Notes under the pieces: generated by a model
What the model was told of the DNA's origin: nothing
Databases searched by the model: none
Seen by the model: the letters and a program-made list of their open reading frames with translations, nothing else
Source of the DNA: Martelella mediterranea
GTDB taxonomy: Bacteria; Pseudomonadota; Alphaproteobacteria; Rhizobiales; Rhizobiaceae
Reading direction: 5' to 3'
Length of the DNA stretch: 64,000 bases
Assembly: GCF_021021415.1 (NCBI RefSeq)
Contig: NZ_JAINWJ010000005.1
Span: 62,001-126,000, forward strand
In this document: piece after piece, positions 16,593 to 19,820 of the stretch
Layout of the letters: each line of letters begins with the position of its first letter
Position numbering within the stretch: position 1 is the stretch's first letter
Made by a program: the position numbers and the translations under genes

Positions 16593-17264
16593 TCAGGCGA
16601 CATTCCAGCGGTCACCGAAAAGCGCCCTCATCGCCGCCGCGCTCTGGTGTCGCCCAACGATCGAAAATCGAGAGAGGTGTGGCAAGACCACGAGTTGGCC
16701 ACCTGGGAAACGCCCTTTCAACGCCTTCACCCGCCCCCAATTCACATCGACTTTTGACAGCTCCGGGCTACCCAAGATACGTCTCAAGGGGTCAGCCAAC
16801 TCCCGCCCCATGCCGATCACAAGCTCCGGTCCCGAGCGATCCAGAATCTCACGCCACAATTGCTCGCCGAACAGGAGAGCTGAATCTTTATTTTCAAGGC
16901 TCGCCCAACTCGGCGACCGAAAGGGCACAAGATTTCCAGCAAGAACATCTTCGGGCACCAATGAAAGCCCGAAAAACAGAGCCCTAATCTGCTTTTGAAG
17001 TGGATTTTCACCCGCAGCGCTCGCTCGATCCCACACTTCATCCACATAAGCACTGCCACGAGACATAGCGAGTTCGCCGTGATCATTGCGGCGGATCGCA
17101 CCACCAGGATTTAGACCGATAAACGCAACGGAGGCACCGTCCAAAACCGATGGCGGACTGCACAGCAGCCGCCAGCCAAGTCTATAACCAGACTCACGGT
17201 AGACGGCCTCAATGCGAGTTTGCAATCCAAGACAGAATTGGCTGTTGGTCGACCGATCCGCCAT
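16593..17264 (-). CDS. uracil-DNA-glycosylase-superfamily-like protein
   Basis: A 223-residue cytoplasmic protein with the UDG-fold landmarks. VAFIGLNPGG (about 44-53) stands in the place of the first catalytic motif, which resembles the MUG/SMUG type GMNPG. LPHLSRFSIVGR near the C terminus stands in the place of the second motif (HPS-type). VLAGNLVPFRSPS and ELVIGMG match the central strands. It may remove damaged bases, but the lack of a clear catalytic Asp or Asn beyond the motif-I Asn makes activity uncertain. ATG 17264 is preceded by AAGGGAG. An in-frame extension to 17456 runs into AT-rich non-coding DNA and is not used. Confidence 0.7.
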   Translation of the reverse strand: MADRSTNSQFCLGLQTRIEAVYRESGYRLGWRLLCSPPSVLDGASVAFIGLNPGGAIRRNDHGELAMSRGSAYVDEVWDRASAAGENPLQKQIRALFFGLSLVPEDVLAGNLVPFRSPSWASLENKDSALLFGEQLWREILDRSGPELVIGMGRELADPLRRILGSPELSKVDVNWGRVKALKGRFPGGQLVVLPHLSRFSIVGRHQSAAAMRALFGDRWNVA

Positions 17265-17515
17265 CTCCCTTCCCTTTCGAGCCCAAACTACCCTTGACCG
17301 GTGGGAGTGGAAAGCACATGGCATTGTCAACGCACCGCTTCGGAACGATGCCCCTTGAAGCGAACCTCCTGCCGAGCCGAGCGCAGCAACCAGACCTTTT
17401 GCATTTTCTCTAAATAAATCATGTAAAAATACATGTATAAACCAAAATAAAATCAACTTTACCGGGTTTAATATTTAATATATACGAATATATAGGGGAA
17501 ATATACTACAGGTAA
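17265..17515. other. AT-rich divergent intergenic region
   Basis: Bases 17405-17515 are markedly AT-rich (runs such as TTTAATATTTAATATATACG) in an otherwise GC-rich window. No gene is visible. It probably holds the promoter of the sialidase-like gene; several -10-like words (TATAAA, TATATA) occur but none can be chosen. The base composition suggests acquired DNA or an H-NS/MucR-type silenced promoter (inference). Confidence 0.5.
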
Positions 17516-19060
17516 ATGATCATGAGGGAAAATACGAAATTAGTATTTATTGACAATGATAATCGTGATTTCTGGGCGTCCGGAAATCACGGCAGCAGCA
17601 TATCGTTTCTCGGTGAAAAATTACTTGTATCCTGGTCCCACAAGCATGCGCGTGACGGCCAATCCTCCGCCATCTATGCTTCATCGGCGGACCCCGTGGA
17701 CTATGCCTGGCGACCGCTGGCGAAAATCGCGGACAATGGCGAAGGCGGCGCTGTTTCCAAATATCCGGCCGCCAACCCGGTGTTTCATTGCGATGCCGGG
17801 AAGATGCGCCTGTTCTGGCAGGTGACCAGTGACGGAACGCAGGCAAGTGCCCAGCTTCGGATGCGCGCCGGAAACATGTCCGATGCCTTCGACAGCATTC
17901 ATTCGGTGGGATGGACCACGCCGGTCGATGGCGATCCTCTGACGACATCGGTGAGCGGCGATGATTTCCTCAATGCCGCCGCAGCGCTCTATCCCAACGC
18001 CTGGCCGCTTCTGAACGGCGCGTTCGAGCCGAAAAAGAGCTTCGAGAAAGCGCCGTCGTTCAGCGCCGAGAAGGGACACAATCTGGCAGCGCCGGACGTG
18101 GATGCCGCCGCAATCGACGCGATGATCGATGCACTGTTCGCCAGGATAAGGGAATTCGACAACACCTATCTCAAGGACGTCAAGCAGCAATTGCTGGAGA
18201 ACAGGCCGGCGCTCCGCCCCATACTGGACAGGTTACGCAGGTTTTCCGACATCCTGCGGTTCTTCGATGCGCTGCACGCGCATATGAGGAGAAACACGCT
18301 CATCGTGTTCCTGTACATGGTCTACGACACCTACAACATGGTCGTCATGCGGCTCACGGTGTTCAACATGTTCAGCCCGGATCGCTATGAACGGGGCTGG
18401 CAGACGCGGTCCCAGCCGCAAAAGATCAGACTGGAAAACGGCGCCGACCGTCTGCTGCTTCCGGTCCATTCCGACGTCGTCAACCTCTCGGTCGTGCTTT
18501 ACTCGGACGATGACGGAGCGAACTGGCACTATGCCGAAACGCCGATCCTCGGCCGCGGCACCGTCGAGCCGAGCATCGTCCAGCGCCCGTCCGGCAAACT
18601 CACGGCCTTTCTGCGCACCAAGGCGCCGGATTTGTATCTCGACCGCATTGCCGTGAGCGATTCCTGCGATTACGGGATCACGTGGTCACCGGCCGTGCCG
18701 ATCCTCAATGCCAGCATCAAAAGTCGAGATTCCGGCATCTCGGCCCTGTCGCTGAAGCATTCGAGATTCGACCCGTCGCTCGGCCCGTTCGTCGTGGTCT
18801 ACACGCCCGACGAGGATTGCCGGAACCTGCATCTTTGCGTCGGGTTCTTCGGCACGACAGCGAGCGGCGGCAACCGGCCGCTCGCCTGGCTCGAACCCGT
18901 CTGCCTGGAGACGGCGGAAGACGGCAGCCGGATCGGCGACCCTTCCGTCACGGAAGGAGACGACGGAACGCTCTATATTTCCTGCAGCTACCGTGTTTCC
19001 AACGGGGACGGCGTCTGCGAGAAAATCTGCGTGATACAATATGATGGCCTCAGTGGCTGA
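17516..19060 (+). CDS. sialidase-like (BNR/Asp-box) beta-propeller protein with helical insertion
   Basis: A 514-residue protein with two canonical Asp boxes (S-x-D-x-G-x-x-W): SDDDGANW at about 330-337 and SCDYGITW at about 383-390. EPSIVQRPSGKLTAFLRT lies between them, typical of BNR_2-type exo-sialidase propellers. The N-terminal third (about 1-135) looks like propeller strands. Residues about 195-290 are a predicted helical insertion with a hydrophobic stretch (TLIVFLYMVYDTYNMVVM) that splits the propeller. No signal peptide is visible, which is odd for a glycan hydrolase. The catalytic Arg triad and Tyr cannot be placed by eye, so activity on sialic or other nonulosonic acids is not shown. 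A second ATG at 17522 is an equally good start. No partner genes for sialic-acid uptake are adjacent. Confidence 0.72.
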   Translation: MIMRENTKLVFIDNDNRDFWASGNHGSSISFLGEKLLVSWSHKHARDGQSSAIYASSADPVDYAWRPLAKIADNGEGGAVSKYPAANPVFHCDAGKMRLFWQVTSDGTQASAQLRMRAGNMSDAFDSIHSVGWTTPVDGDPLTTSVSGDDFLNAAAALYPNAWPLLNGAFEPKKSFEKAPSFSAEKGHNLAAPDVDAAAIDAMIDALFARIREFDNTYLKDVKQQLLENRPALRPILDRLRRFSDILRFFDALHAHMRRNTLIVFLYMVYDTYNMVVMRLTVFNMFSPDRYERGWQTRSQPQKIRLENGADRLLLPVHSDVVNLSVVLYSDDDGANWHYAETPILGRGTVEPSIVQRPSGKLTAFLRTKAPDLYLDRIAVSDSCDYGITWSPAVPILNASIKSRDSGISALSLKHSRFDPSLGPFVVVYTPDEDCRNLHLCVGFFGTTASGGNRPLAWLEPVCLETAEDGSRIGDPSVTEGDDGTLYISCSYRVSNGDGVCEKICVIQYDGLSG

Positions 19061-19075
19061 GGCCTGACCCACCGA

Positions 19076-19468: not shown

Positions 19469-19604
19469 TTCCATTCTCCATCAACATCCGGGTTCAAGGC
19501 CCGGCGTTAGAGGTGCATTGCATCAGCGCGCGAAGGCGGCGTCAATAGGCGCTCTGCGTGTCTAATCGAGCTGCCTGCCGAAGCCTTTCCTTCCATTCTG
19601 CGTC

Positions 19605-19747
19605 ATCCTCGGGCTTGACCCGAGGATCTAATCCCGTCTCAATACGAGCGGAGTGCCGGGTCGCATTCTGCCTTGCCAGTCACGCTCGAACAAACCCACA
19701 CATCATTGCCGGCCCTGTGGTTGGATCCTCGGGTCAAGCCCGAGGAT
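19605..19747. repeat. inverted pair of CTCGGG palindromes inside the suf operon
   Basis: The gap 19469-19820 between sufA and sufT holds no gene. It has hairpins at 19605-19627 (ATCCTCGGG-CTTGA-CCCGAGGAT) and 19725-19747 (ATCCTCGGG-TCAAG-CCCGAGGAT), which are exact reverse complements of each other. Transcribed through the operon, they could form either two small hairpins or one long 23-bp stem with a loop of about 100 nt. That may lower sufA expression or protect the upstream mRNA (inference). Confidence 0.88.
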
Positions 19748-19820
19748 GACGCCCGTGGGTTGGGCTGCCGCCAGGAGCAACGCAATTAAGCAGGCATTGG
19801 CCGCCTGCCCTCTTGCTGCC

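Follow-up and report, generated by a model that had tools for sequence, protein, structure and literature searches.

The window analysed here, a stretch of 64,000 nucleotides (64 kb) from Martelella mediterranea, carries an open reading frame (positions 17516 to 19060, forward strand) for a protein of 514 amino acids that is related by sequence to the propeller of sialidases. It is an accessory gene of Martelella and is under purifying selection. The propeller contains an insertion, and residues at several of the sialidase catalytic positions are replaced. Most likely the protein does not work as a sialidase. The reading that we prefer, and to which we give about an even chance, is that it binds an acidic sugar or a small acidic ligand in the cytoplasm without cutting it. 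Genes with Asp boxes are easily taken for sialidase genes, and this is a conserved, selected member with an incomplete catalytic set.

A TAA codon lies immediately 5' of Met1, so that no in-frame upstream signal peptide has been missed. In the orthologue of one other Martelella genome (G006), ATC replaces the first ATG and the next in-frame ATG is the equivalent of Met3; translation from Met3 (17522) is therefore more likely than from Met1. No N-terminal hydrophobic segment or signal peptide was seen, which agrees with the preliminary description of this gene, and the protein is most likely cytoplasmic. The whole protein matches nothing in NCBIfam or PADLOC.

The Pfam family PF13088 (BNR_2) matches the protein with 60.1 bits (E 2.9e-16; curated cut-off 31.4 bits) in two stretches, the better at residues 306-487. 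It matches all five members of the family considered here: the window protein, its orthologues in genomes G007, G012 and G006, and a second copy in G012 (the paralogue). All five also carry the two perfect Asp boxes already pointed out in the preliminary description, SDDDGANW (residues 330-337; 18503-18526, forward strand) and SCDYGITW (383-390; 18662-18685, forward strand). Among 20,000 shuffles of the window protein the mean number of Asp-box matches was 0.0058 and none had two. A profile built from five neuraminidase-like relatives matches the protein at residues 24-119 and 325-416, in the correct order. The N-terminal propeller part (residues 22-132; 17579-17911, forward strand) is delimited by the first of these matches (envelope 20-132, c-Evalue 2.2e-5) and by an hhalign alignment starting at residue 22; we read it as blades 1-2. 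The C-terminal part (residues 299-512; 18410-19051, forward strand) holds both Asp boxes and the better BNR_2 match. It is also here that the GH33 intramolecular trans-sialidases (IT-sialidases) of the leech and of R. gnavus align (307-469/470) and that a GH33 sequence (L049) matches; the L049 match begins at residue 311 of the window protein and at residue 299 of the second G012 copy.

Between the two profile stretches there are 205 residues as against 54 profile positions, that is, about 150 extra residues. We place this insertion at about residues 134-297 (17915-18406, forward strand), the edges being set by judgement. As judged from the alignments, it interrupts the propeller between blades, after blade 2; alternatively, it could itself be a degenerate blade. 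It has no match in Pfam. Two PHROG matches (E 0.13 and 0.19) were regarded as chance hits and, when a family profile was compared with the PDB, the insertion was matched only in one designed helical bundle (E 0.61). AlphaFold models are of low confidence (mean pLDDT 31.1 for the full length, using the window protein and a relative, L006, and 45.3 for the insertion alone). Both predict two long helices within residues 197-259 (18104-18292, forward strand): the first covers 197-229, and the second starts at 231 and ends at 253 or 259, depending on the model. There follows a hydrophobic stretch (residues 260-286; 18293-18373, forward strand), whose KD value peaks at 1.32 over 19 residues in the window protein and at 1.78 in the paralogue, the usual cut-off for membrane segments being about 1.6. 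Residues 262-286 are a strand in the full-length model and a helix in the insertion-only model, both models being poor. An insertion, with helices in these low-confidence models, thus stands from the preliminary description, but it is longer than the 195-290 given there and its hydrophobic part is strand or helix depending on the model.

The residues that GH33 enzymes use for catalysis are listed for R. gnavus NanH, in the available text of PMC4510645, as Arg257, Arg575 and Arg637, Glu559, Tyr677 and Asp282. The 4x6k chain has Glu at 559 and Arg at both 575 and 637, all three with the same offset of 237, and the register of the alignment to the window protein was checked in this way. Glu351 (18566-18568, forward strand) is the equivalent of the catalytic Glu559, and Arg367 (18614-18616, forward strand) that of Arg575, the second arginine of the triad. 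The glutamate is kept in four of the five family proteins (Gln in the second G012 copy) and Arg367 in all five. Thr349, two residues ahead of the glutamate, is also present in all five and is a feature of the IT-sialidase subgroup; in R. gnavus NanH, Thr557, two residues before Glu559, is a residue with a described role, according to the part of PMC4510645 that deals with it.

The other positions were assigned by eye, Arg1, Arg3, the aspartate and the tyrosine on motifs, with Asp47 placed by spacing. In the order window protein, G007, G012 first copy, G006 and G012 second copy, the Arg1 position, located through the NHAAN motif of the relatives, reads His, His, His, Arg, His (His25 in the window protein; 17588-17590, forward strand). 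In the same order the Arg3 position, located through an R-x-N-L motif, reads Cys, Gly, Gly, Gly, Arg (Cys435; 18818-18820, forward strand), and the tyrosine position, nine residues ahead of the Gly in the last D-G turn, reads Asp, Asp, Asp, Ala, Tyr (Asp475; 18938-18940, forward strand). The Asp47 position has Asp in four of the five and Gly in G006, where an Asp lies two columns further on.

None of the five proteins has the full arginine triad, which in the window protein reads His25/Arg367/Cys435, and none has the complete set of six residues. The tyrosine nucleophile is nowhere paired with the glutamate: the window protein has Glu351 with Asp475, and the paralogue has the tyrosine but Gln for Glu. 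Because Arg1, Arg3 and the tyrosine nucleophile are lost, sialidase activity of the window protein is unlikely and a ligand is probably bound uncut. Of the two possibilities raised in the preliminary description, a transferred gene acting on nonulosonic acids or a non-catalytic propeller, the second therefore fits better. Several features weigh against a pure binder. Glu351 (in four of five), Arg367 (in five) and the presumed acid/base aspartate (in four) could mean that catalysis of some kind is retained; G006 has Arg at Arg1, and the paralogue has both Arg3 and the tyrosine. In addition, the program alignment sets Arg436, kept in four of the five proteins and adjoining the lost Arg3, one column from Arg637, and this residue might stand in for Arg3.

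The gene occurs in four of 13 Martelella genomes (E 1e-10). Protein identity to the window protein is 97% in G007, 86% for the first and 53% for the second copy in G012, and 71% in G006; the reading frame is open in all five copies. In samples that overlap and that each cover their group incompletely, six of 394 genomes of the family gave a match (E 1e-5), of which three belong to Martelella and the other three match only in part (residues 324-418 or 325-416), and three of 398 genomes of the phylum (E 1e-4), two of them partial. The window's own genome was the sole match among 385 of the class (E 1e-6) and among 397 of the order (E 1e-5). No full-length relative outside Martelella was thus found in the four samples. 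The refuting condition set in the preliminary description, a gene conserved in place across the order with normal composition, was not borne out in the order sample of 397 genomes. Six exact peptide patterns hit 16 stretches in contigs of about 85,000 species; of these, a single one codes for a relative (L006). Searches of plasmids and phages found no relatives, nor did scans of viral contigs with the window protein, A1 and the protein of the neuraminidase-like relative L009. In the literature, nothing was found on Martelella with sialidase or on sialidases combining an arginine triad with a helical insertion, and nothing on such a protein for Martelella with neuraminidase, as judged by titles, or with Asp-box or BNR repeat.

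All four carriers have the gene immediately 3' of sufA, in convergent orientation; its stop codon (19060) and the end of sufA (19076) are 15 bases apart in the window. The exact names of genes at this locus are those we presume to apply, the identities following Pfam matches. The other flank is chaA in G007 and in G012 (there with the second copy between), a uracil-DNA-glycosylase-like gene and then chaA in the window, and lysE and fumC in G006; in G006 and G007 there are only about 300 bp on this far side. The remaining nine genomes have no copy at sufA: in eight of them fumC-lysE lies near sufA, and in G003 chaA is 129 bp away. The surroundings of sufA differ between groups of Martelella (fumC-lysE-sufA as against carA-chaA-sufA) and, in four genomes, the roughly 600 bp between lysE and sufA contain a putative Lrp/AsnC-like reading frame, seen by eye. 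Between sufA and sufT the window has a 32-nt inverted repeat (19600-19631 and 19721-19752, 97% complementary), which we take to resemble a repetitive extragenic palindrome.

The glycosylase-like gene (16596-17264, reverse strand; PF03167 at 2.1e-4, below the cut-off) has a codon-adaptation value of 0.312 and a GC3 of 56.7, and is the most foreign of 14 genes tested. In G009, a non-carrier of the fumC-lysE type, a 61% homologue stands next to sufA, between the genes there. Taken together, the foreign codon usage and the G009 homologue suggest that the 3' side of sufA may accept foreign genes.

A tree of six Suf proteins places G006 inside a group of non-carriers, so that, by our count, the gene must have been gained twice at the same site or lost three to four times. 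Identities to the window protein (96.7, 85.6 and 71.2%) rank like those of the Suf proteins (98.4, 93.6 and 90.1%), which fits inheritance in place. In G012, where the two copies stand in tandem, a stretch of 43 nt with 81% identity to the 3' end of that genome's sufA follows the second copy (50.5% GC, GC3 58.0). Next come 147 nt with 89% identity to the window sequence just outside chaA. It is likely that these pieces were left when two alleles of the locus recombined, and the second copy looks like another allele brought in by this event. The two G012 copies are about 53% identical and have complementary losses: one has the glutamate and lacks Arg3 and the tyrosine, the other has Arg3 and the tyrosine and lacks the glutamate. 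A bolder idea, which we think improbable, is that the site 3' of sufA serves for allele exchange of a diversified cytoplasmic recognition protein of the sialidase fold. In that case its members would be polymorphic sensors of a ligand or decoys, or a pair that together makes up a single site, having arisen by insertion of a new domain into a sialidase propeller.

The codon-adaptation value of the gene is 0.558, below those of 12 of the 13 other window genes (0.614-0.800), and GC3 rises from 56% over the first 80 codons to 80-85% in mid-gene. The AT-rich upstream stretch noted in the preliminary description is a leader of 113 bp (17403-17515, forward strand) with 22.1% GC, the lowest-GC place in the 64 kb (the next separate place has 31%). 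The suggestion made there of a transferred gene is supported in part. Presence in four of 13 genomes, the lack of a full-length relative in the outside samples, the codon value and the leader all agree with transfer; against it, no donor was found, the gene is always beside sufA and its distances rank as those of the Suf proteins.

Among the four orthologues, dN/dS (Nei-Gojobori, our own script; the G006 row begins after its first codons) is 0.197-0.277 over the full length of the gene and 0.141-0.222 within the insertion (0.277 and 0.220 between the window and G006); in comparisons with the paralogue, whole-gene synonymous distances are saturated. Purifying selection acts on propeller and insertion alike, and this constraint indicates a function.

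The leader, a presumed promoter, includes a ATACATGTAT palindrome and an AGG that resembles a ribosome-binding site. Its identity to the leaders in G007, G012 and G006 is 95.6, 80.5 and 70.8%, where the gene's synonymous distances would predict 93.6, 71.2 and 55.5%; base bias inflates these identities and the excess is supportive only. Identity to the leader of the second G012 copy is 54.2%. No sigma-70-like promoter match was found on the forward strand of the scanned region. The 16-bp TATACTACAGGTAAAT of the leader occurs once in the genome when up to two mismatches are allowed, and a regulon promoter was rejected, as the genome search returned the propeller gene alone. At the 3' end, an inverted repeat, GGCCTCAGtggCTGAGGCC (19046-19064, forward strand), lies across the stop codon, where the ends of the gene and of sufA converge, in all four orthologues. 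It was rejected as a terminator: there is no T run, and a 61-nt fold is ordinary (z -0.70; 40 of 200 shuffles equally good).

None of the 16 window genes lying at 8-29 kb and scanned with Pfam (one without a family) is a sialic-acid gene, in line with the preliminary description, and there is no sugar-catabolism gene among the neighbours mapped or scanned. A NeuB synthase is encoded in two of the four carriers (the window's genome and G012) and in none of the nine other genomes (two of 13 in all). As G006 and G007 carry the propeller gene without NeuB, the cell's own nonulosonic-acid metabolism was rejected as the source of a substrate and is suggestive at most. With this and with an incomplete carboxylate-binding triad, the action on nonulosonic acids that had been proposed for the protein is not borne out. 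The window's genome has one other BNR_2 gene (L052, on G000:C29), which is uninterrupted. Next to it lies a gene whose matches to iron-containing alcohol dehydrogenases fall short of the curated cut-offs.

In the model that we prefer, the conserved AT-rich leader would drive an accessory gene for a propeller whose blades 2 and 3 are separated by an additional domain. The remaining pocket (Glu351, Arg367 and perhaps Asp47) would hold an acidic ligand without cleaving it, the insertion would serve as a lid or as a surface for contact with a partner and, given the absent export signal, the protein would act in the cytoplasm. Given the incomplete triad and the constraint on gene and insertion, ligand binding in what remains of the pocket would be the simplest account.

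The alternative that deserves most attention, possible in our view though somewhat unlikely, is an active enzyme of the broader BNR_2 or predicted-neuraminidase kind whose catalytic set has been rearranged and whose substrate is an acidic sugar, though not sialic acid. In its favour, Glu351 and Arg367 are kept. The neuraminidase-like relatives also have His at the Arg1 position, and two of them adjoin genes of catabolic type (the alcohol-dehydrogenase-like gene just mentioned and one that we take to be dihydrodipicolinate-synthase-like). Against such an enzyme, the motifs of these relatives are mostly not kept in the window protein, and its mapped or scanned neighbours lack sugar catabolism. 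Far less probable is a genuine GH33 sialidase that carries an unusual insertion, even though IT-sialidases are the closest solved sequences, the V. cholerae sialidase appears to have an insertion near this junction and NeuB is encoded in the window's genome. Three orthologues have substitutions at two of the three triad arginines and G006 has one, the tyrosine is replaced in all four, the carriers G006 and G007 lack NeuB and an export signal is absent.

A single accessory gene with its own AT-rich leader and a patchy presence might also be an orphan effector or surface factor, exported by a specialised secretion system and acting on a glycan of a neighbour or host. We give this little credence. 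The type VI sheath family PF05943, which covers type VI alone, is found in none of the 13 Martelella genomes, carriers included (the control was positive in E. coli); there is, moreover, no room for a partner gene between the propeller gene and sufA, nor much in the roughly 300 bp on the other side in G006 and G007. Least probable of all is a decaying gene without function. Lost catalytic residues and absence from nine of 13 genomes would suit it, but the five open copies, the dN/dS values of gene and insertion and the conservation of the leader above synonymous expectation speak against it, and selection largely refutes it.

Of the systems with which the protein can be compared, the neuraminidase-like relatives of the same bacterial family (among them L007, L009, L050 and L052), which we take to be COG4692 predicted neuraminidases, have the propeller halves in the same order. 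They share with the window protein about 30% identity, the His at the Arg1 position (NHAAN) and, by eye, an Arg-Gln-Pro near the start of blade 3. They differ in having no insertion and a Tyr at the nucleophile position, where the window protein has about 150 inserted residues and a replaced Tyr, and in their motifs VHMN, NNNSS, NHSN and WGVPRAP, mostly not kept in it. The pattern of an uninterrupted propeller with these motifs and the Tyr (the latter absent in four of five family proteins) does not fit the window protein, the pattern being that of five relatives used here and not of COG4692 itself. Two of their loci were viewed in context and both adjoin metabolic-type genes, one of them the open reading frame presumed to be dihydrodipicolinate-synthase-like. 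A literature search on COG4692, judged by titles, found nothing on the subject.

The best matches among solved structures are the IT-sialidases (leech NanL, 1sli; R. gnavus NanH, 4x47 and 4x6k), which have the Glu, the second Arg and the Thr two before the Glu in common with the window protein. In R. gnavus NanH, as far as the available part of PMC4510645 describes it, there are four Asp boxes, a complete triad with Tyr and Asp, in contrast to the incomplete set here, and an I-domain that extends between two propeller blades and is mainly beta. The insertion of the window protein has no sequence match to the solved IT-sialidase chains and is partly helical in the poor models. The GH33 query L049 matches the V. 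cholerae sialidase (1kit) in two pieces with about 180 residues between, and this break appears to lie near the same junction of blades 2 and 3. In that secreted enzyme a lectin domain forms the interruption, and the full catalytic set is present. The insertion of the window protein, which belongs to no known family, stands near a junction at which known sialidases also carry additional domains.

Inactive trans-sialidases of trypanosomes are eukaryotic surface proteins and, to our knowledge, have no such insertion. They keep the sialidase fold with the nucleophile Tyr replaced (Tyr342His), the Tyr being likewise missing from the window protein, and are described in the available text of PMC5504189 as having lectinic properties, which by analogy offers a precedent for the binding reading. 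If the window protein is indeed a binder, it would be a bacterial counterpart of these lectin-like inactive enzymes, and a warning not to label genes of this sort as sialidase genes.
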